Below are positions 8,910 through 61,506 of a stretch of 64,000 nucleotides of DNA, in pieces. The DNA lies in contig CP043547.1 of the NCBI GenBank assembly GCA_009664345.1, forward strand, positions 4,182,709-4,246,708, given 5' to 3'. The notes under the pieces were generated by a model. It made no database searches. It was not told where the DNA came from and saw only the letters and a program-made list of their open reading frames with translations. Position 1 is the first letter of the stretch; every line of letters starts with the position of its first letter. The translations under genes and the position numbers were made by a program. Source of the DNA: Planctomycetales bacterium 10988. GTDB taxonomy: Bacteria; Planctomycetota; Planctomycetia; Pirellulales; Pb10988.

Positions 8910-11900
8910 GTGTTAAGACGTTGTCCCCATTGTAATGCCACTTTGTCCGACTCCGAGCGTGCTCGGGGGAATTGCCAAAGCTGCGGCAAATTGTTTGGTC
9001 CAGCCAACACGAAGACCGTGTCGGCCCGGGGGACACTCAGGCCACCTGGTTCCGCGACGCATGTTCCGTCCAACGGCCGTACGGAAGCCAATCTGCAAAA
9101 TAAAAAGACGCGACCGAACAATAAAAAGACGCAACTGAATCCCAACACGAAGAAGCCCCCTTCTCGCCAAGGGACCATGGCTTCGCTCCCTGCACTTCCT
9201 TCGCTGGGCGATCTTTCGGAAACTCCTCCCGAGGGAACTCCGACTCCGCAAAAGAAAGATACCGTGAAGGACCTCCCTGCGGTTGAGCAACAGGGAGCCT
9301 CTTCCGATCAAGCGCCCACTTCGCCTCCGGCGGAGAGTCCTGCTTCCGATCGAAAGGACCAAGCAAGGCGTCGCAACAAGAAGAGTACCATTCCGGAACT
9401 TCAGGCGATTGCCGAAAATGATACCAAATCTCACGATCCCCCTGCGGCAAAGCCCGCGGAGCCTACTCCTACGGAACAAAAGCCCGCAGCTCAACGACGT
9501 AATAAAAAGAGCACCTTGCCTCTGACCGCGATTCCCGAACAAAAAGAGCCGGAAAAAGAGAAACGCGGCCCAGGCAATCTGCCGGTCCGTTCGCTGCAAA
9601 ATCGTGATCGGGACCGTTCTCAAGACGATTCGAAAAAGCCGGGCACGATCTTCGAAGACCCAAGAGGCAAACAAGGCGAGAAAAAACTCAGCCGCCGCAC
9701 GACGATTGACGGAGATGATAGCAAGACCGTCGTTCCTAAAGAGCCTCATCCGCCGGAAGCCAAGGAACCACCGAAGCCGGATCAGCCGCCGAAAAAAGAA
9801 AACAACTCGCGGACGATCATCAGCCAAACCCACTCTGGCAGCCCTGCTCAGAATAAATCGAAGGACATTCCCACCGATCCGGATGAGATCCGCCGCTCGG
9901 TAGCGATGAATTGGGCCGAGGCACTGGGCGAAGGGGAATTGGTCGATAAAGAAGATCGCCCCAAGACTTCGACCATCACCCAAAAAGCCAAAAAGACGAT
10001 GATCTCGCGGTCGTCCGTCATCGTCAAACCGCGTCGAATTGCCGACCCTCAAAAGTCCGCGGATGCCCCGGATTATGAAATCCAGGAAGTCCTCGGCGAA
10101 GGCGGCATGGGGATTGTCTATCTCGCCCGACAAACGGCCATCGACCGGACGATTGCCATCAAGATGCTCAAGCCGGGCATGGCCGATGATCCGGGCCTGC
10201 GGCTGAAGTTCTTGACGGAAGCGGCTGTCACCGGGGATTTGGACCATCCCAATATCGTGCCGATTCACGATTTGGGCGAAAGCGAAAACGGCTCGATCTT
10301 CTATGCCATGAAGCGGGTCCGCGGGACTCCCTGGGATGAAGTCATCCAAGAGAAGTCGCTCGATGAAAACCTTGAAACGCTCCTCCGCGTCGGCGATGCC
10401 ATCGGTTTTGCCCATGCCCGTGGGGTGATTCACCGCGACTTGAAACCTGAGAACGTAATGCTCGGGAACTTCGGGGAAGTCCTTGTCATGGACTGGGGGC
10501 TCGCCCTAGGAGTGACCGCCGAAGGAAAGGCCGAAGAGGTCGAAAGCGCCGAGAGCATGTGCGGCTCACCGGCTTACATGGCCCCGGAAATGGCCACCGG
10601 ACCGATTCACAAAATCGGCACCGGCAGCGACATCTATCTTTTGGGAGCCATCCTTTACGAAGTCATCGGCGGGATTCCTCCGCACTACGGCGATACAACG
10701 CTCAACTGTCTGTTCGCCGCGGGGATGAATAAAATTGAGCCGATCGAGGCCAAAGGGGAACTCCTCGATATTGCCCTCAAGGCGATGGCCACCCAACCGG
10801 AGGAACGTTACGAATCCGTCAAGGATTTCCAGACAGCGATCCGCGATTATCAATCGCACTCCGAAAGTATCCTGCTGGCCGACAAGGCCCAAACTTCCTT
10901 GGAATTGGCTCAGCACACCGATTCTTATGATGACTTCGCCAAGGCCATGTTCGGCTTCAGCGAAGCGGCGAGCCTCTGGAGTGGAAACGAAGACGCCATC
11001 CAAGGGGAACTCGTCGCCCGGCAACGCTACGCCGAAGCGGCCTTTCGCAAGCATGACTTGGACTTGGCCGAATCGCTGTTGCTTCCCGAAGAACCCCTGC
11101 ATCAAACGCTCTTGGCGGAAGTGGTCAAGGAGCGAAAAGAACGCATCGCCCGACAGCGGACACTCCGCTATACCGCTCACCTGATCCGGGCCATGGCGGT
11201 GCTGCTGTTAATCGTCATGGTAGGAGCCTTCCTCTGGGTTCGTTCGGAACGGGATAGCGCTCTGGATGCCAAACGTGAGGCGGATATCTCCCGCGGGGTA
11301 GCCGAGGAACAGCGGCAAAAAGCCCTGGCCCAAAAGAGTATTGCTGACGAACAACGTGCAAAAGCCCTCGAAGAACAGAAGAAAGCCGAGCAAGAAAAAC
11401 AGAACGCTGAGGAACAAAAAGAAATCGCAGAAGAGCAAAAGCTCTTGGCAGAAAAACAAAAACTCCTGGCCGATGAAAAGACCGAGGAAGCCGAAGAGTC
11501 CGCCCAAGCGGCCCTGGACGCCCAACAGCAGGCGATTCTCGCCCAGCGATCCGCGGAATATGAAGCCTATGTCGCCAAGATCGGGCTGGCCGCGGCCAAT
11601 ATCAGCGACAATGGTTTCGGCCAAGCTTTCTTGCAGCTGGAATCCGCCAATCCCGATCTCCGCAATTGGGAATGGGGGCGGCTCCGCTATTTGACGAATC
11701 TCCACGAACGCGTTTACAGCGGCGAAGGACGTATCCAATCGCTCGGCGTTTCCCCTGACAATCAACGCTTCGTAACTGCTGAAGAAAGCGGCCATGCCCA
11801 TGTTTGGGATATGGCAAGCGGCGAAACCTTGCTCACACTGCCTCACTTCCCCGCCGGCGTTTCGGCGAACGTCCGCGCTGCCCTTTTCTCGCCCACGCAA

Positions 11901-14501
11901 GAGATCATCGCGACCGCTGGGGACGACAGCACAATCAAGCTTTGGAATTCCAACGACGGAACGTTGATCAAAACCCTCGAAGGACACGACAACGCCGTTC
12001 TCTGTCTTGCCTTTTCTCATGACGGCAAACGCCTGGTCTCCGGCGGGGCGGACTCGATCGCCATTTTGTGGGAGGTCGAAAGTGGCAAAGAGATTCGCAA
12101 ATTCGAAGGGCATACCAACTGGATTTGGTCCGTGCAGTTCTCGCCCGATGACGAACGCCTCGTCACCGCCAGCCAAGAAGGAACCGCCACCGTTTGGCCC
12201 GTCGAACAGCCAAAAGAAGACATTTACAAAGCCGCCTATTATTCCAACAAGTACCGATATATTTCTTTCGCTGAGCATAACGGGGCCGTTTACGCCGCCA
12301 GTTTCACTCCCGATGGCAAGCATATCATCACCGGGGGCTACGACAAAACCGCCCGGATTTGGGACTCTTCGTCTGGTGAAGAAGTCCGCGTCTTGCAAGG
12401 CCACTTCGGTCGAGTCACCTCGGTCGCGATCTCCCCGGATGGCACCGAAGTCGCTACCGGCAGCCGGGACAATACGACGAAGATTTGGAATTTCAAAACC
12501 GGAGCCAACCTCAAAACCTTGCGAGGCCATGCCTCCTCGGTCAATGTGGTCCGCTACCTCGATAGCGACGATCAACTACTCACGGGAAGTAACGACGCTA
12601 CCGCGAAGCTGTGGAAACTCGCCGACTATCACGAATACTACACCCTCAACGGGCATCAAAACGAAATCCTTTCGGCAACCTTCTCCCATCATGGCAGCTT
12701 TGTTGCCACCGGGAGTCTTGACCGATCCGCTCGGCTTTGGAATGCCCGCAATGGAGAGCTGATCCATTCGTTCCAAGAAGGCCACACCCAGGCAATTCTT
12801 GCGGTCAGCTATCATCCGAACGGGAAGCAAGCCCTCTCCGCCAGCGAAGGGGGCACGATCCGCATTTGGAATTTGGAGGAAAGTCGGCAAGTCCGAGTCA
12901 TCAAGGCCCACGATGCCGCCGTGGCTTCGGCCCTTTATTCCCCCGATGGAAAGTGGATCGCCTCCGCAGGCGACGATGAAAAGATCAAGGTTTGGGACGC
13001 GGCCACCGGCGAGCTGATCACCACCATCGACGAACACCGCGGCGGGATCAATGCCTTGGCGTTTTCGCCGGACAGCAAACTTCTTCTCTCTGGAGACAGC
13101 AACTCCAAGGCCCGCATCTGGCGTTGGCAAGACCGGCAAATGCTGCAAGAGTTCAGCCAGCATAGTAAACCGATCACAGCCTGTGCCTTTTCGCCGGATC
13201 AACGCTTTGCCCTCACCGCGAGCGAAGACCGCGTCGTCGGGATTTGGGAAGTCCAAACCGGCCGCGAAGTCGGAACCTTGGCCCATGATCGTCAAGTCAC
13301 GGCCTTGGCGGTTTCCCGCGACGGCAGCCAAGTCCTGACCGGCACCCAAGACGCGGAGGTTCACCTTTGGGACTTCCGACGCCGCGAAAAAATCCACACC
13401 ATGCAAGGACATGAAGGGCGGATTACCTCCGTCGACTTCTCTCCGCAAGGTACGCAGGCCCTCACCGCTGGCGGAAAAGATGCCAAGCTGTGGGACTTGA
13501 AAGCCGGGAAGCTAATCAAAACGCTTCAAAGTCCTAGTCTCGAAGGAACCTATCGCTATAGTTGTTGGTCCGCCCGCTTTGGCCCTGATGACACCACCTT
13601 GCTGACCGGCGGCGAACTCGATGTGATTCTGTGGGATGCCCACTCCGGCGACTGGATTTCGACGATGGCTCCGCAAGGGGCAGTCAGCGGGCTGGCCTTT
13701 ACGCCGGATGATCGCTTCCTCGTCACGGCCAGTTGGGACGGAACACTCAAAGTTTGGAACACCGACACCGGTTATCTGGAAACAAGCCTCAAATCCGGCC
13801 ACCTTGAATATATCAACTCCGTCGCCATCTCACCGCTGGGCAACTTGATGGTGACATCCGCGAATGACGGCACCGCGGTCATCTACCAATACCCAAGTGG
13901 AAAAATCCTGCGAAAGCTGGAAGGGCATCTCGGACGTATTAAAAGTGCGGTCTTCTCTCCCGATGGCCGCTGGGTTCTGACGACCTCCTCCGACCGAACC
14001 GCCAAGCTCTGGAATAGTGCCTCCGGGAAGTTGGTGGAAACGTTCACCGGACACGAAGGAGCCGTCCTCGCCGGGGTGTTCTCTTCGGATGTTCATTTCA
14101 TCCTGACCGGCAGCGAAGACGGAACCGCACGGCTTTGGCATATTGATTCCGCCCGAGAATTAATGGTTTATCGTGGACATACCGCCTCGGTGACTTCCGT
14201 CGCTTTTGCTCCGATGCAAGGCCGAGCGGCGGAATTTGATGTCTCCAAAAATGGCCGACAGCGGCGTTACTGGCTTTCCAGCTTGCGAGTTATCACCGGC
14301 AGCGAAGACCTGACCGCCAAAATTTGGGACTCTTCCACCGGGAAGGAAATTCTCACCCTCCGGGGGCATACCTTGGAAATCACTGCGGTTGGATTTTCTC
14401 CTAATGGCGACGAAGCCCTCACCGCCAGCCGCGACCAAACCGCCATTATCTGGCCTTCCCTCCGCTGGTCCGGGCAAGACATCCGGCTATCAAAGCAGTA
14501 A
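8910..14501 (+). CDS. Membrane Ser/Thr protein kinase with ~21 WD40 repeats
   Basis: 1863 residues, GTG start, with a TGAGG element about 11 nt upstream. Order of parts: N-terminal zinc ribbon (CPHC...CQSC); a long charged, Pro-rich linker with repeated RRNKKST motifs (~40-380); a Hanks-type kinase domain from Y389 with GEGGMG loop, IAIK lysine K418, HRDLKPEN at 508-515 and DWG at 528-530 in place of DFG; one TM helix (~758-778); a Glu/Gln/Lys-rich coiled coil (~785-875); then WD40 repeats to the C-terminus. I count 21 WD units, which would make three seven-bladed propellers. The catalytic residues are present, so an active kinase is expected: cytoplasmic N-terminus, propellers probably across the membrane. 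This architecture is common in planctomycetes; the ligand is unknown. The gene stands alone, and a repeat element begins 7 bp after its stop. Confidence 0.93.
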   Translation: MLRRCPHCNATLSDSERARGNCQSCGKLFGPANTKTVSARGTLRPPGSATHVPSNGRTEANLQNKKTRPNNKKTQLNPNTKKPPSRQGTMASLPALPSLGDLSETPPEGTPTPQKKDTVKDLPAVEQQGASSDQAPTSPPAESPASDRKDQARRRNKKSTIPELQAIAENDTKSHDPPAAKPAEPTPTEQKPAAQRRNKKSTLPLTAIPEQKEPEKEKRGPGNLPVRSLQNRDRDRSQDDSKKPGTIFEDPRGKQGEKKLSRRTTIDGDDSKTVVPKEPHPPEAKEPPKPDQPPKKENNSRTIISQTHSGSPAQNKSKDIPTDPDEIRRSVAMNWAEALGEGELVDKEDRPKTSTITQKAKKTMISRSSVIVKPRRIADPQKSADAPDYEIQEVLGEGGMGIVYLARQTAIDRTIAIKMLKPGMADDPGLRLKFLTEAAVTGDLDHPNIVPIHDLGESENGSIFYAMKRVRGTPWDEVIQEKSLDENLETLLRVGDAIGFAHARGVIHRDLKPENVMLGNFGEVLVMDWGLALGVTAEGKAEEVESAESMCGSPAYMAPEMATGPIHKIGTGSDIYLLGAILYEVIGGIPPHYGDTTLNCLFAAGMNKIEPIEAKGELLDIALKAMATQPEERYESVKDFQTAIRDYQSHSESILLADKAQTSLELAQHTDSYDDFAKAMFGFSEAASLWSGNEDAIQGELVARQRYAEAAFRKHDLDLAESLLLPEEPLHQTLLAEVVKERKERIARQRTLRYTAHLIRAMAVLLLIVMVGAFLWVRSERDSALDAKREADISRGVAEEQRQKALAQKSIADEQRAKALEEQKKAEQEKQNAEEQKEIAEEQKLLAEKQKLLADEKTEEAEESAQAALDAQQQAILAQRSAEYEAYVAKIGLAAANISDNGFGQAFLQLESANPDLRNWEWGRLRYLTNLHERVYSGEGRIQSLGVSPDNQRFVTAEESGHAHVWDMASGETLLTLPHFPAGVSANVRAALFSPTQEIIATAGDDSTIKLWNSNDGTLIKTLEGHDNAVLCLAFSHDGKRLVSGGADSIAILWEVESGKEIRKFEGHTNWIWSVQFSPDDERLVTASQEGTATVWPVEQPKEDIYKAAYYSNKYRYISFAEHNGAVYAASFTPDGKHIITGGYDKTARIWDSSSGEEVRVLQGHFGRVTSVAISPDGTEVATGSRDNTTKIWNFKTGANLKTLRGHASSVNVVRYLDSDDQLLTGSNDATAKLWKLADYHEYYTLNGHQNEILSATFSHHGSFVATGSLDRSARLWNARNGELIHSFQEGHTQAILAVSYHPNGKQALSASEGGTIRIWNLEESRQVRVIKAHDAAVASALYSPDGKWIASAGDDEKIKVWDAATGELITTIDEHRGGINALAFSPDSKLLLSGDSNSKARIWRWQDRQMLQEFSQHSKPITACAFSPDQRFALTASEDRVVGIWEVQTGREVGTLAHDRQVTALAVSRDGSQVLTGTQDAEVHLWDFRRREKIHTMQGHEGRITSVDFSPQGTQALTAGGKDAKLWDLKAGKLIKTLQSPSLEGTYRYSCWSARFGPDDTTLLTGGELDVILWDAHSGDWISTMAPQGAVSGLAFTPDDRFLVTASWDGTLKVWNTDTGYLETSLKSGHLEYINSVAISPLGNLMVTSANDGTAVIYQYPSGKILRKLEGHLGRIKSAVFSPDGRWVLTTSSDRTAKLWNSASGKLVETFTGHEGAVLAGVFSSDVHFILTGSEDGTARLWHIDSARELMVYRGHTASVTSVAFAPMQGRAAEFDVSKNGRQRRYWLSSLRVITGSEDLTAKIWDSSTGKEILTLRGHTLEITAVGFSPNGDEALTASRDQTAIIWPSLRWSGQDIRLSKQ

Positions 14502-14507
14502 CCGCGC

Positions 14508-14712
14508 GGAAGCCCGCGTTAGCGGGGTTTCACGAACACCAGGGTTACGAATCGTGTTCGGTTTTCAGTGTTCGGCACTGGGGGTGAATATCGAGAGCGG
14601 GTGAAAGTTGTTTTCATAGGGAAGACTTGTTCCTCGGTACTTGTATCGGGCACCAAAGGCAGCGTGACCCTGGAGTACCGAACATTGAAAACCGAACACG
14701 CTCCGTTACCCT
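14508..14712 (+). repeat. MITE-like intergenic repeat, copy A
   Basis: This 205-bp segment matches the reverse complement of 59989-60207 along its whole length. It opens with a small hairpin (CCCGC, GTTA loop, GCGGG, then GTTT; 14513-14530) just after the kinase-gene stop codon, which may act as a terminator. An inverted repeat of about 37 bp flanks the interior: 14539-14575 against 14678-14714. Its inner 23 bp has a single mismatch and contains TGTTCGG/CCGAACA heptamers. The ~100-bp interior has no open frame of note. Confidence 0.85.
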
Positions 14713-14758
14713 GGGTCCCCGCGTCGTCCCGCCAAGGCGGTCCAACCCCGCCCACAAT

Positions 14759-15547
14759 TCACCACTCCGGCTCCCGATCCTTTAAAAAGGCCTCAACGCC
14801 TTCCTTCGCGCTGTCGGTAGTACGAGCGGAGGCGGAAAGGGCAGCCCCGGCATTCATAAATGTGCTGAGATGTTCGCCGATGGTTTCATTGAGTAAACGC
14901 TTCGAAAGCATCAACGATTGTGGGGAAGCGGTCGCGATCCGACGTGCAAGTGCTTGGGTGGGCGGAAGGATCTCCTCATCGGTGAACACCTGATGAACCC
15001 AACCCATCGCATGGGCTCGCAAAGGGGAAATCGATTCGCCGGTGAGCATCAACCCACTGGCTACCGCCGCCCCTGCCCGGAAAGTCAACAGCGGCAAAAT
15101 CACTCCAGCGACCAATCCGCGATGGACTTCCGGCAGCCCGAACTGTGCTTTTTCCTGGGAAAGAATAAGGTCCGAAGCTAAAGCAAGGCCAAACCCCGCC
15201 CCCAGGCATGCCCCACGCACGCAGGCCAGAATCGGCTTCGGGAACTGCAACATCATTTCAAAAAGATGCTGCAACTGCTCGAAGTCACGTTGCCAAGTCA
15301 CATCGACGCCGGGCAGCGTGCTGCTGGCCTGCATCTCTTTCAAATCCACGCCAGCACAAAAAGAAGGGCCATTCCCACGGAGAATCACCACCCGGACGGA
15401 ATACTCTAAATGCAAATCATGCAGGGTTTGCGCAAGTTCAAACAATAGCGGGCGATTGATGGCATTGTGTTGCTCAGGTCGATTGAAGGAGATCGTCGCG
15501 ATGCCGTCTTCAATACGGAGTTGTAAATATCCAGCACCCGTTGCCAC
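14759..15547 (-). CDS. Enoyl-CoA hydratase/isomerase (crotonase) family protein
   Basis: 262 residues, the normal length for the family. The CoA-binding and oxyanion-hole segments are clear: CAGVDL (64-69) and GACLGAG (112-118). The Glu in LPEV (E140) matches the second catalytic glutamate of rat enoyl-CoA hydratase (E164), but the position of the first (E144, in GGGCELA) is Gly120 here. Loss of one glutamate is seen in isomerases and other crotonase members, so a hydratase role should not be assumed. It probably acts on an acyl-CoA thioester in the cytoplasm. It lies downstream of topA on the same strand with a 104-bp AT-rich gap, so co-transcription is uncertain. Substrate unknown. Confidence 0.88.
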   Translation of the reverse strand: MATGAGYLQLRIEDGIATISFNRPEQHNAINRPLLFELAQTLHDLHLEYSVRVVILRGNGPSFCAGVDLKEMQASSTLPGVDVTWQRDFEQLQHLFEMMLQFPKPILACVRGACLGAGFGLALASDLILSQEKAQFGLPEVHRGLVAGVILPLLTFRAGAAVASGLMLTGESISPLRAHAMGWVHQVFTDEEILPPTQALARRIATASPQSLMLSKRLLNETIGEHLSTFMNAGAALSASARTTDSAKEGVEAFLKDREPEW

Positions 15548-22100: not shown

Positions 22101-22197
22101 CGTGTTCGGTGTTCGGTGTTCGGTGTTCGAGGGAAAAGTTTAACCTATCTTCAAATCTCATCTCTTCCTTCCCTTCCAATAACTTTCACCCGCTCAC
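22101..22197 (+). repeat. Degenerate copy C of the heptamer repeat family
   Basis: Four tandem TGTTCGG-type heptamers lie at 22101-22129. An ACTTTCACCCGCTC segment near 22184-22197 matches the interior of copies A and B in the same relative order. The rest of the element is not recognisable and the second heptamer arm is missing. Nearby, 22265-22286 forms a separate 7-bp hairpin (GGGTTTT, GCGG loop, AAAACCC). Confidence 0.55.
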
Positions 22198-22384
22198 AAA
22201 TCTTCACTTCCCACTCTCGCCCCTCTTCCCTCGTCGCTCGCCCCTACTGTCCCCCCACAAAGGGAGGGGTTTTGCGGAAAACCCTTGTTCAGAGCTAGCT
22301 TTTAAGAAAGAATAGAAGAAGAGTTATTCTAAAATTGAAGAAGTTGATTCTCTTCTGATTTCCCTTATTTTTGCGTCAATTATA

Positions 22385-23813: not shown

Positions 23814-25007
23814 ATGCAAGTCGCTCAACGCCTAATATTGCCCGGCCTGACGCATGTTCCGACGCAGAGTTCTTCGTTTTCTCCCTCGTCTTCGGCCCGG
23901 GTTGATCTCCCGGTGCATGATTTCTGGTCGGGGCCGGAAAATCAGGTTCTCATTCATCTTTGGGAAAACCTTCTCAAATCTCCCGAGGCTCCTGAACATC
24001 CCTCTCCGGAGAACCCCATCCTCCTTTATGGACCTTCCGGCGTCGGCAAGTCCCACCTCGTTTGGGGGCTGGCGCATCTACGCGAACAACAGCTTTCGCA
24101 AGACAAACAAATCAACGGAAGTCATTCTCAATTCGTATGTTATGAAACGGCCCGTCAGTTCGCCGACGAGTATATTCAAGTCTATCGCGCAAGCCGCACG
24201 CCAGGAAAATCGAACGCTTCCACCGATGAACTTTTGCCTCAATTTCGCGAACGTTATCTCCGTTTGAAGCTGTGGGTGCTGGAAGATATCGAAGATTTAG
24301 CAGGCAAAGCGGGAACACAACAAGCCCTCGTTGGCCTCTGGGAATCGTTACTCGGTCAACGAATTCAGCTGATTTTCACCAGCAAAAAACCGCCCCATAG
24401 CTGGATTGAGCTTAGTCCGGCCCTCCGCAGTCGTCTCGCTGGCGGTCTTTCACTTCCCATCGCCCCTGCCGGCCCGGAGGCCCGCTGTGCCTTGGTTGAG
24501 AATATCCTTTCCAATCGCGGAATCCCTTTCGACCAGGAAGCCGTCCGTAATTTGGCTCTGAAGCAGCCTGGCGGCGTCCGAGAGCTTCTCGGAGCGATTC
24601 ACAAGCTCTCCACTATCAGACGCCTCGAAGGCGGAGAAATCGACGCTGAGGGCGTGAAGCGGCTCCAATCCCAAGCTCCCCCGCCTCTCAATCCGCCGAC
24701 ACTCTCCGAAATCGCCCGGCAAACCGCCCGGACCTTTCACCGTTCCGTGGCCGAGTTACGCAGTTCCTCGCGACGCCAGGCCATTGTCCAGGCCCGCGGG
24801 GTGGCGATTTTTCTAGCCAGAGAACTCACAAATCTAAGCCACGAACAGATCGGGCAGTACTTCGGCGGTCGCGATCACACCACCATTCTGCACGCCGACA
24901 GGGCGACTCGCCGACGTGTCCAACAGGAATCCGCCCTCAAACAGCAAGTTGCCGAACTCACCGAACGGCTCAAACAGCGGCAAAAACACCAGGCTGTTCC
25001 GGAATAG
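23814..25007 (+). CDS. dnaA: Chromosomal replication initiator DnaA, domain I lacking
   Basis: 397 residues from the ATG at 23814, chosen because GGAATGGA precedes it; an in-frame TTG at 23760 would add 18 residues. The AAA+ domain has a good P-loop (GPSGVGKS, 73-80), a Walker B of the form VLEDIED (the usual first Asp is Glu), a sensor-1-like FTSKKPP, box VII arginine region LRSRL and sensor 2 GGVREL. Domain IV ends with the DnaA signature GRDHTTILHA, which contacts DnaA boxes. Only ~45 mostly Ser/Pro-rich residues precede the AAA+ domain, so the DnaB-binding domain I of E. coli DnaA (467 residues) is absent. Followed by an oriC-like spacer and dnaN, the classic bacterial order. Confidence 0.93.
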   Translation: MQVAQRLILPGLTHVPTQSSSFSPSSSARVDLPVHDFWSGPENQVLIHLWENLLKSPEAPEHPSPENPILLYGPSGVGKSHLVWGLAHLREQQLSQDKQINGSHSQFVCYETARQFADEYIQVYRASRTPGKSNASTDELLPQFRERYLRLKLWVLEDIEDLAGKAGTQQALVGLWESLLGQRIQLIFTSKKPPHSWIELSPALRSRLAGGLSLPIAPAGPEARCALVENILSNRGIPFDQEAVRNLALKQPGGVRELLGAIHKLSTIRRLEGGEIDAEGVKRLQSQAPPPLNPPTLSEIARQTARTFHRSVAELRSSSRRQAIVQARGVAIFLARELTNLSHEQIGQYFGGRDHTTILHADRATRRRVQQESALKQQVAELTERLKQRQKHQAVPE

Positions 25008-26870: not shown

Positions 26871-27206
26871 ATGCGTGATAATCCTTTTCCCTCGCGAGGT
26901 CGCAAGCGCGGAAAGCCCCAAGCGATTGGGGAACTCGTCGCTCAATTGATGACCCGCCGTGGCTATGGACGGATTCGTGCCAACACGGAACTTGCTCAAG
27001 TTTGGCAACAGGTGATCGGAGAACCCTTTGCCGAACATACAAGAGTAGGAACCTTTCAGCGAGGCACTTTAGAAATCATCGTGACCCATTCCGCGCTCGT
27101 GCAAGAGCTAACTTTTCAACAACAAGCCCTCTTACAAAAACTACAGCAATCCGTCCCTGAAATGAACATGAAAGGGTTGCGCTTTCGCGTTGGAAAAATC
27201 GGTTAA
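26871..27206 (+). CDS. dciA: DUF721/DciA family replication protein
   Basis: 111 residues. DciA is the ancestral loader or operator of the replicative helicase DnaB in bacteria without DnaC/DnaI. The DUF721 fold is seen in the conserved order: an N-terminal Arg/Lys-rich start, an I..L[VM] helix (AIGELVAQLM), a central W..[VI][VI]G (VWQQVIGEPFAEHT), then L.I.V..SALVQELTFQ and the C-terminal FRVGKIG strand. Its place between dnaN and gyrB is a common one for this family. It fits with the DnaA here lacking domain I. ATG at 26871 follows GAAAGCGAAGT; the Shine-Dalgarno match is weak. Confidence 0.88.
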   Translation: MRDNPFPSRGRKRGKPQAIGELVAQLMTRRGYGRIRANTELAQVWQQVIGEPFAEHTRVGTFQRGTLEIIVTHSALVQELTFQQQALLQKLQQSVPEMNMKGLRFRVGKIG

Positions 27207-27237
27207 AAGAAGATGCCTTGAAATGTTCAAAAGGACG

Positions 27238-30026
<2,789 letters not shown>

Positions 30027-59445: not shown

Positions 59446-59976
59446 ATGAGTGATTTCAAGTCGAATGCCCGGCCTTCGCCCGATCCCTTGATTCTGCCGA
59501 TTCCCGATTCTTTAAAGGCGATCTTCGCCCCCTTTCGCGACCCGCTGGCAACCGAGGAACAACTCCCCGAAATCCTCTCCGCCATTCAAGCCCGATACGG
59601 ATATTTGCCGGAGCGGCATTTGCGTTATCTCACCAGAGAGTTCCCGATCACGCTTTCTCGGGTGTATAAGGTTGCCTTCGCGGAGGAAGGAAAATACACA
59701 TTCGATCCGCCGGGCAAGCATCGACTGGGGATTTGCCTCGGGCCGTATTGTTCACAACGGAATTCCGAGGCGATCGTGCATGCTGTTTCGAAATCCCTTG
59801 ATCTTGAACCAGAAGACACCACCCCGGACGGGCAGCTTTCTCTGCAAATCATGTACTGTGCCGGACATTGCCGCCAAGGCCCGATCCTGATGGCCGACGA
59901 CGAAGCACATTTCGAATCGAATCCGGAGCGAGCTTGTCGGATTGCGGGGAAGCTAAGAGGAACGGAAGGGGAGTGA
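59446..59976 (+). CDS. NuoE-like [2Fe-2S] thioredoxin-fold protein
   Basis: 176 residues. N-terminal helical part (ILSAIQARYGYLPERHLRYL) followed by a thioredoxin-like [2Fe-2S] domain with cysteines in CLGPYC and CAGHC, separated by TTPDGQLSLQ, matching the NuoE/HoxE pattern C-x4-C ... C-x3-C. NuoE passes electrons from NADH oxidation in complex I; homologues serve formate dehydrogenases and hydrogenases. No nuoF or other complex I gene is adjacent, so it may be a stand-alone member. Repeat copy B begins 12 bp after the stop. Confidence 0.85.
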   Translation: MSDFKSNARPSPDPLILPIPDSLKAIFAPFRDPLATEEQLPEILSAIQARYGYLPERHLRYLTREFPITLSRVYKVAFAEEGKYTFDPPGKHRLGICLGPYCSQRNSEAIVHAVSKSLDLEPEDTTPDGQLSLQIMYCAGHCRQGPILMADDEAHFESNPERACRIAGKLRGTEGE

Positions 59977-59988
59977 ACGCGGGTTGCT

Positions 59989-60207
59989 AGGGTAACGGAG
60001 CGTGTTCGGTGTTCGGTTTTCCGTGTTCGGTACTCCAGGGTCACGCTGCCTTTGGTGCCCGATACAAGCACCATGGAACGAGTCTTCCCTATAAAAGCGA
60101 TCTTCACCCGCTCTCAATATTCACCCCAAGAGCCGAACACCGAACACTGAAAACCGAACACGTTTCGTGACCTCGGTGTTCGTGAAACCCCGCTAACGCG
60201 GGCTTCC
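59989..60207 (-). repeat. MITE-like intergenic repeat, copy B (inverse to copy A)
   Basis: 219 bp, matching the reverse complement of 14508-14712 from end to end. The 14-bp length difference is accounted for by one extra heptamer in each arm: TGTTCGG in 60001-60030 and CCGAACA in 60133-60162. The GCCCGC-GTTA-GCGGGG hairpin end lies at 60186-60203, inside the 3' end of the LarA-like gene; its TTA-G supplies that gene's stop codon. The interior (60031-60132) is nearly the same as in copy A, and identical for about 45 bp next to the left arm. Confidence 0.87.
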
Positions 60208-61497
60208 TCCTCCCTCAATCTTTCCCGGTCCTTCAAAAAATAAATATTGGGCGTTTTCCATCAGGAGGCAAGTTGAAGGGCGTTCGAGGAGGCGGTGGAC
60301 TTCTTTTTCGGAATGAAGGGGGATGAAGTTCAAGTCTTCCATGACCTCTTCGCGTATCGGCAACCAAGCGTAAATTTTTGTATGGGTTTGGGCCTTGGCC
60401 AGATGTTGAGCGGTGAGGGCATCGGCGGGGAGGTATTGCTGCAAGGTCGAGATCGTATAGTTCAGGTCTTCTTGTTGCAGCAGGAGTTGCAGGCCTTCGG
60501 TCATCTCCTCCAGGCGGCTGGCGGGAGCGGCCTCTTTTTGCGTGGCGACCGCGGATTGTGCCTCTTCCGAAAGGTCTCCGCAACAGAGTACGATCGAACC
60601 GCCTGGCTTCACGAATGGCAAGGCCATTTCCAGCGAGTTAGCAATTTCTTCCCAGGTTAATTCCCCCGGCGATTTCTCCCAGGTGATGAGGATCGTCTCC
60701 GCGGATTGCAAGCGGGAGATTTGCCAAGCCTTCCGATAAAGGGAGGTGGCGTGCATCGCGACTTCGGCAGGCGTTCCCGCGAAATAGGCAGCATTCTTCC
60801 CCTTCCTGCCCGGCACCGCCATCAGGGCGAAATGCACTCCCAAGAGCCAAAGGACATCTTGCACTTCCTTGATGGCTGGCTCCCACGGCTGCTTGGCGAC
60901 GTAATTGATTTGCTGTTCGCGGAAGCGACGTTGGGTCGGCTCATCAGAAAACAGAGGGTAAAGAAACTCCGCTCCGGCCCGAATTCCCCAATAAGGATTG
61001 AATGTCGTTGTTCCCAGCGGCAGGACCAAATCGGCCTCGACCAACGCCCGGTTGAGATAGATACGTTCTCCATCTTGTGTAGAAGCCAAGTAGGCAATCT
61101 CTCGGCTGTTGTCCGGGTCGTGTTCCAGTAAAGTAATTGCTTCGAGCGTTTCGGCGGCGAGGTGCGGGGTCAGCTTGAGCGAGGTCTCGCCAGGGGCCTG
61201 AAGGACCGTGATGGATTCCGCCGCGATCCCGGTTTCCAGAAAGTACTTGACGGCATTTCCTACCAAGAAAGCCGCCTCCATTAACCATGGATGCACGGCA
61301 ATCGTGATGCGGTCATCCGGGGTAATTGCTTGGTTCAGAGCCGGAAAATCAAGAGGATGTTGCAAGGCATGTCGTAGGTCCGCAGCCGGCGATTGGACAC
61401 TCGTTTCGCTCTGGGAACGATGAAAGGCGACCAATTGCTCAGGGGGGAACGCGAGTCGCAGCTCGCGGAGATTACCGTATCCAATGACCGTTTCCAT
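60193..61497 (-). CDS. LarA-like (DUF2088) protein, probably without NPN cofactor site
   Basis: 434 residues from the ATG at 61497; a GTG at 61506 is possible. The N-terminal half follows the LarA/DUF2088 fold: DDRITIAVHPWLMEAAFLVG, ETGIAAESITVLQAPGET, a HDPDN...GERIYLNRALVEADLVLPLGT series. In lactate racemase LarA the next segment carries the PH...K residues that hold the nickel-pincer nucleotide; here it reads TTTFNPYWGIRAGAEFL, without the expected Lys and His. The protein is therefore probably not a classical racemase. No larB/C/E genes are nearby. Its last codons (GSPR and stop) come from repeat copy B, so the element seems to have changed the C-terminus. Confidence 0.75.
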   Translation of the reverse strand: METVIGYGNLRELRLAFPPEQLVAFHRSQSETSVQSPAADLRHALQHPLDFPALNQAITPDDRITIAVHPWLMEAAFLVGNAVKYFLETGIAAESITVLQAPGETSLKLTPHLAAETLEAITLLEHDPDNSREIAYLASTQDGERIYLNRALVEADLVLPLGTTTFNPYWGIRAGAEFLYPLFSDEPTQRRFREQQINYVAKQPWEPAIKEVQDVLWLLGVHFALMAVPGRKGKNAAYFAGTPAEVAMHATSLYRKAWQISRLQSAETILITWEKSPGELTWEEIANSLEMALPFVKPGGSIVLCCGDLSEEAQSAVATQKEAAPASRLEEMTEGLQLLLQQEDLNYTISTLQQYLPADALTAQHLAKAQTHTKIYAWLPIREEVMEDLNFIPLHSEKEVHRLLERPSTCLLMENAQYLFFEGPGKIEGGGSPR

Positions 61498-61506
61498 AGA
61501 ACACAC

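Follow-up and report, generated by a model that had tools for sequence, protein, structure and literature searches.

In the genome of Planctomycetales bacterium 10988, two intergenic sequences with long inverted arms containing heptamers lie 45 kb apart in a stretch of 64,000 nucleotides (positions 4,182,709 to 4,246,708 of contig CP043547.1; hereafter the window), and the question they raise is what kind of element they represent. A first reading of the sequence alone (the sequence-only reading) had considered a non-autonomous mobile element or a terminator, among others. Our analysis leads us to think it likely that the two copies, A and B, are gene-less and probably non-autonomous members of a mobile class that seeks out stop codons and whose full form consists of a PF05635/S23p gene within inverted arrays of degenerate heptamers.

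The basic description given by the sequence-only reading holds up well. Both copies match along their whole length in opposite orientation, B being the 85% identical match to A when A is searched against its own genome by BLAST, and the element-wide alignment (84% over 231 bp) contains the two 7-bp gaps that had been named beforehand. In each copy inverted heptamer arms enclose a conserved interior of about 100 bp, and one end carries a GC hairpin; B, as claimed, has four units per arm where A has three. Copy A lies on the plus strand and begins right behind the TAA stop codon (14499-14501) of a 1863-aa ORF (8910-14501). Its left outer arm (14502-14554), with the GC hairpin and the CACCAGGG motif, fills the 53 bp from this stop codon to the first heptamer and is followed by the three heptamers of the left array, TGTTCGG TTTTCAG TGTTCGG (14555-14575), the interior that it has in common with B according to the A/B alignment (14576-14677) and the right array, in which three heptamers stand inverted, CCGAACA TTGAAAA CCGAACA (14678-14698). 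Here the range of 14508-14712 first assigned to A proved too short, since 3' of the right array there is a second, inverted outer arm (14699-14758), to which the left arm of A gives a minus-strand match and which is endowed with its own CGCCAAGGCGG hairpin, and it continues up to the stop codon (14759-14761) of a convergent ORF (14759-15547). In window coordinates A thus spans about 14502-14758. On the minus strand, B consists of a left outer arm (60161-60213), which the minus-strand ORF 60193-61506 enters before it stops at TAG (60193-60195), a left array of four heptamers (60133-60160), the interior common to A by the same alignment (60031-60132), a right array of four inverted heptamers including one CGGAAAA (60003-60030) and a short right outer arm of 26 bp (59977-60002) directly 3' of the stop codon (59974-59976) of ORF 59446-59976.

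Both copies are located between protein-coding ORFs and outside an rRNA helix, and their complementary ends are able to form a stem. Single-strand folding yields -104.5 kcal/mol for A and -98.2 kcal/mol for B (z-scores of -7.1 and -4.4 against shuffled sequences). Rfam gave no match over 14300-14900 up to an E-value of 5 and none across the whole window at the gathering cut-off.

A and B are not alone. Using a sequence-only arm model built from 34 left arms, we found 116 arm matches in the own genome (E up to 1), which fall into 73 places, 67 of them scoring at least 20 bits and 40 of these 67 having arms on both strands. The figure of 67 is a lower bound as 150 of 1492 candidates were scored; two of the places are the two ends of a single gene-bearing element and so correspond to about 66 elements. 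A and B belong to this genome-wide family. Elements measure about 240 bp, their homology is limited to the element itself, and several subfamilies have most of their length in common: A with B, four copies at 2.08-2.93 Mb, four others at 2.53-2.89 Mb and three at 4.37-4.40 Mb. Two further members lie in the window. One (22103-22255, plus strand) has TGTTCGG units on its left, a CTCGCCC-like right array recognised by eye and no full outer arm that we could see; the other (27207-27445, minus strand) has five CCGAACA units at 27410-27444 and two inverted units, TTTTCGG and TGTTCAG, at 27254-27267.

As to where the copies are found, 71 of the 73 places fall within 1.92-5.77 Mb, a span of 58% of the genome, and dnaA is at 0.20 Mb. 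The copies may therefore favour the half of the genome distant from dnaA, and any reading in terms of distance to the origin is based on the position of dnaA only, since GC skew, sampled over 14 stretches, did not reveal an origin signal that could be used. A second DnaA-family match (64.7 bits; window 23922-24452) is separate from the dnaA gene at 0.20 Mb. Copies of the same subfamily are often close to each other, at 1 to 45 kb (2081974/2082986, 4393809/4395161 and A/B), as if new copies land nearby. A palindromic AAAAGTGCTTTT-like interior motif occurs at 13 of the 67 places, and 35 times in 280 kb of background.

A genome with many intergenic palindromes might bring to mind REP/BIME-like sequences moved by a RAYT (Y1) transposase. 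With PF01797, however, we obtained no match in the own genome by a search that was positive in 5 of 14 control genomes, and the elements, at about 240 bp, are unlike REPs, whose length is 20-40 bp according to PMC3733652. Unless the transposase has been lost, this explanation is contradicted for the own genome, and we give it next to no credence.

The position of the family relative to genes is more telling. For 103 arms the array was readable (65 left, 38 right), and at 86 of them an ORF of at least 80 codons reads in and ends within 200 bp, with TAA (34), TGA (31) and TAG (21) all in use; no such ORF reads into the remaining 17 within that distance. The stop codon is 40-59 bp away from the first heptamer at 46 of the 86 arms and exactly 53 bp away at 13. 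Random positions in 14 sampled 20-kb stretches show such spacings in 11.0% and 0.44% of cases and random intergenic positions in 11.7% and 0.61%, so the excess at the arms indicates that the outer end of many copies sits directly 3' of a stop codon. Copy A is anchored in this way at both ends (53 and 60 bp) between convergent genes and B at its right end, its left neighbour's stop codon falling within the arm; in the fourth window member the inverted units at 27254-27267 begin 47 bp behind a TAA (27204-27206). Stop anchoring, then, is common in the family and not universal. By a crude ORF caller, the gaps that hold the 67 places are tandem in 37, convergent in 23 and divergent in 7 cases, compared with 134, 26 and 28 among 188 background gaps, and convergent gaps are over-represented (23/67 vs 26/188).

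Such a location directly 3' of stop codons, the excess in convergent gaps and the strong hairpins could also be read as signs of a host element under selection, i.e. a bidirectional terminator or an RNA-stabilising hairpin behind genes. Yet a pattern scan of A detected no GC hairpin with T tract inside it, the single terminator-like site being outside A at 14794-14813, and the 37 tandem and 7 divergent gaps, as well as interiors that are common by descent, do not fit this role. Nor are arms better matched within than between elements (outer 0.399 vs 0.415, inner 0.374 vs 0.389; 25 elements, ungapped), a comparison of limited power as right arms are diverse and one whose noisier version with free end gaps had the same outcome. 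Hence a terminator as the primary nature, one of the options of the sequence-only reading, finds no support, and to our minds a host-selected element is improbable. The position behind stop codons would allow termination as a side effect.

The mobile-element reading gains from a member at 5755755-5756516. In these 762 bp, two family arms (88 and 74 bits) flank a 120-codon ORF whose product is a PF05635/S23p protein (E 9e-32), a four-helix bundle with 2gsc as closest solved chain (E 1e-15). A and B have the same arms without such an ORF, and PF05635 remnants were absent from the element windows when three of the four PF05635 proteins of the genome served as queries (with the interior partly covered at single-arm places). 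The family's arms occur at one only of the four PF05635 genes of the own genome, and all four genes lie by eye within inverted heptamer arrays of four dialects; in a numerical test, lag 7 was the best period at 2/4 left and 4/4 right sides. At the locus around 2313294 the PF05635 gene has a very long CCCTATT array to one side and a short degenerate one to the other. No retroelement was found next to the gene in the 762-bp member, the seven reverse-transcriptase matches of the genome being elsewhere. The strongest of these (4151998-4152621), about 30 kb before the window, contains one in-frame TAG. A search of phages gave no homologue of the four-helix protein.

How do the two ends of an element relate to each other? 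The sequence-only reading had proposed that the arms grow jointly and stay complementary. This is not what the copies show, neither in unit number nor in unit order, nor in the likeness of outer or inner arms within one element (see the 25-element comparison above). With a strict parser, which stops at degenerate units, misses A and shortens B, the left array has as many units as the right one in 12 of 38 elements, compared with 11.2 by shuffling (Spearman -0.05); with a lenient parser that includes A and B, this is so in 15 of 39, compared with 12.7 (p 0.21; Spearman -0.06). Identical unit order at both ends was seen once by either parser (1/38 and 1/39), and four right arrays of 8, 9, 17 and 23 units stand opposite left arrays of only 3 to 5. 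Even the extra units of B are unmirrored: its left array reads TGTTCGG-TTTTCAG-TGTTCGG-TGTTCGG and its right array, as reverse complement, TGTTCGG-TGTTCGG-TTTTCCG-TGTTCGG. What the ends do have in common is their dialect. Judged by the first units, both ends are of T-type in 22 and of G-type in 11 of 38 elements and mixed in 5, meaning that 33 of 38 use one dialect, as do A and B with inverted TGTTCGG-type arrays at both ends. Discordant cases are an element at 4.53 Mb, in which GGTTCGG units face CCCCACT units, and, by eye, the third window member at 22103-22255. The ends are therefore coupled in dialect and uncoupled in unit number, and unit numbers drift freely, slippage being the simplest cause.

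Matched arrays are also found well beyond this genome. Counting the own genome, 69 of the 117 genomes of the order have PF05635, and we examined 33 planctomycete loci (the four own plus one each from 29 of the 68 others, out of more than 150 matches) and 10 of 25 plasmid records with a homologue, all of the 10 cyanobacterial. Among periods 5-11, lag 7 was strongest in 28/33 left and 32/33 right flanks of the planctomycete genes, compared with 4 and 4 in the far flanks; for the cyanobacterial plasmids the figures are 9/10 and 9/10, compared with 2 and 0, one plasmid locus (L191) having no clear 7-bp period. Where an array at these 43 loci exceeded the threshold, it was G-rich in 34/35 cases on the left side and C-rich in 34/35 on the right. 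In the 30 loci with both arrays, the 6-mers common to the left and the reverse-complemented right array amount to 0.498 within a locus, a value reached in 0 of 5000 permutations, and 0.027 between loci. PF05635 genes, including most of the 39 further ones, are thus generally linked to inverted heptamer arrays that are matched and specific to their locus. Judging from comparison of 38 loci, in which pairs with proteins 50-60% identical have 0.08 of their dialect in common and pairs above 60% have 0.26, the heptamer dialect decays faster than the protein. Three of the ten plasmid genes (L189, L185 and L191) lie within CRISPR operons, twice at cas6/cas4 and once at cas10/cmr3.

These data bear on two further explanations. 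One is that we are dealing with plain heptamer repeats that arose by polymerase slippage and belong to no element. According to PMC4679880, Mrazek et al. 2007 had found heptanucleotide repeats to be more abundant than other long simple repeats in most of the genomes they surveyed, and the freely varying unit numbers agree with slippage; it would, however, leave unexplained the conserved outer arms and interiors, the polarity of G-rich left and C-rich right arrays and their locus-matched dialects. As slippage accounts for change in unit number only, the idea is contradicted as a full explanation and can hardly be entertained. The other is a conventional MITE, an internally deleted DNA transposon whose unseen transposase recognises the outer arms and in one copy of which the four-helix gene travels as a passenger. 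Its inverted ends, the many short gene-less copies, the subfamilies with common interiors and the presence of a PF05635 gene in one copy only would all suit a MITE. Against this, no transposase with matching ends was seen (Y1, the sole transposase family searched, is missing from the genome), and a passenger would not explain why the same architecture surrounds PF05635 genes of unrelated dialect in other phyla. We consider a MITE possible and, on balance, unlikely. A non-autonomous mobile element, the first of the earlier options, remains the best fit to the many copies, to homology that ends with the element and to the single copy in which the family's arms enclose a gene; for the planctomycete copies, movement itself is what we infer.

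The outer arms look lineage-specific by sequence comparison since A was matched in 1 of the 38 nearest other genomes, over 22 bp. An exact 22-mer of the family was present at 10 loci in 9 assembled genomes bearing the names Planctomycetota (among them names of Pirellula and Planctomycetales type), Verrucomicrobia, Fimbriimonadaceae and Chthonomonas, and absent from viral contigs. At these loci the array starts 7-11 bp behind a stop codon in 3 of 10 and more than 100 bp behind in 2, with no stop found in 5; one (L045) adjoins a gene that reads by eye as PF05635-like. Among 293 other genomes from the phylum, 9 contain a degenerate triple heptamer and 4 a reversed control pattern, so this pattern is rare elsewhere in the phylum and such a search offers weak support.

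For the gene-bearing class, insertion at stop codons can be seen directly in cyanobacteria, where related plasmids have the PF05635 gene present or absent at the same place. At site 1, the empty sequence AAAAAGTAATTAAC of Tolypothrix PCC 7601 (read from one of six shorter matches) corresponds to AAAAAGTAAT-element-GTAATTAAC in Trichormus variabilis (the match being 97.9% identical), with a 5-bp duplication, GTAAT, across the stop codon TAA. A Nostoc sp. C052 plasmid (L193) has a shortened relic of the element at this site, other plasmids having the full element or none. At site 4, the Nostoc plasmid pNsp_c is empty (GGTTCTAGGTTATG) and pNsp_a is filled (GGTTCTA-element-TTCTAGTTATG), with a 5-bp duplication, TTCTA, at the stop codon and a filled right flank that is one G short. 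Insertion at site 3 was at GTAATG with ATG as the only repeat, and site 2, behind the stop codon of cas10, is too diverged for a duplication to be read, which leaves a 5-bp target duplication at 2 of 4 cyanobacterial sites. Our one attempt at a planctomycete empty site gave no match in the 3 other genomes of the genus concerned.

Taken as a stop-codon-seeking mobile class, A, B and their relatives may be envisaged as follows. The full form would comprise one gene, for the PF05635/S23p four-helix-bundle protein, with G-rich heptamers to its left and C-rich ones to its right, and would settle directly behind stop codons. Planctomycete copies would have moved by the same route as the cyanobacterial elements, gene-less ones depending on four-helix protein made elsewhere, and heptamer numbers would drift, most simply by slippage, with the dialect of both ends remaining matched. 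An RNA route of movement is conceivable given the seven reverse-transcriptase matches in the genome and the resemblance to Avd, an accessory protein of diversity-generating retroelements, that PMC10053308 ascribes to PF05635; systems with Avd differ in that no retroelement was found next to the PF05635 gene of the 762-bp element.

Known systems show partial likeness. In Coxiella burnetii, according to PMC4990558, the intervening sequence (IVS) of 23S rRNA has a variable number of tandem heptameric repeats beside an S23p ORF, inverted-repeat ends and is cut by RNase III; transposition is recounted there as one hypothesis for IVS origin, and function and origin of both the IVS and the S23p protein are called unclear. 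Our family resembles what is described in that source by the S23p-family ORF of the 762-bp sibling, by inverted-repeat ends that form a long stem and by heptamers. It differs in being intergenic behind stop codons, in having arrays at both ends and dozens of copies per genome, and in that A and B are ORF-less. Another parallel may be seen in the TAACTGA heptamer repeats of Beggiatoaceae, some cyanobacteria and Bacteroidetes, which PMC4679880 presents as a cross-phylum phenomenon without assigned cause. These too are intergenic heptamer arrays in scattered phyla, with horizontal transfer suspected, but they are repeated in direct orientation, for the most part a short way 5' of start codons, and the portions of PMC4679880 drawn on here mention neither an inverted partner array nor a PF05635 gene. 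With MITEs and REP/BIME sequences the family has in common that it is short, multicopy, intergenic and inverted at its ends, whereas the lack of Y1 transposase in the genome, the expandable heptamer arrays in the arms and the fixed place behind stop codons set it apart. In a literature search of mostly open-access papers, preprints excluded, no paper turned up that joins PF05635 to inverted heptamer arrays or stop codons or that describes the class as a whole.

A wider and more tentative idea, to which we would not yet commit ourselves, is that of a widespread class of bacterial mobile elements that lack a classical recombinase and in which a four-helix protein of S23p/Avd-like type would act with a heptamer-armed hairpin to insert at stop codons, perhaps via an RNA or single-strand intermediate. 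If each move remade both arrays from one template, the dialect would change faster than the protein and still be matched at both ends, and the 23S rRNA intervening sequences as well as some scattered heptamer repeats would be special cases. Be that as it may, the dispersed, stop-codon-seeking form, whose sites in cyanobacterial plasmids are known both filled and empty, allows movement to be tested directly, and a PF05635 class of this kind offers an explanation for some of the scattered heptamer repeats. The gene-less copies, for their part, provide a large natural set for finding which ends matter.
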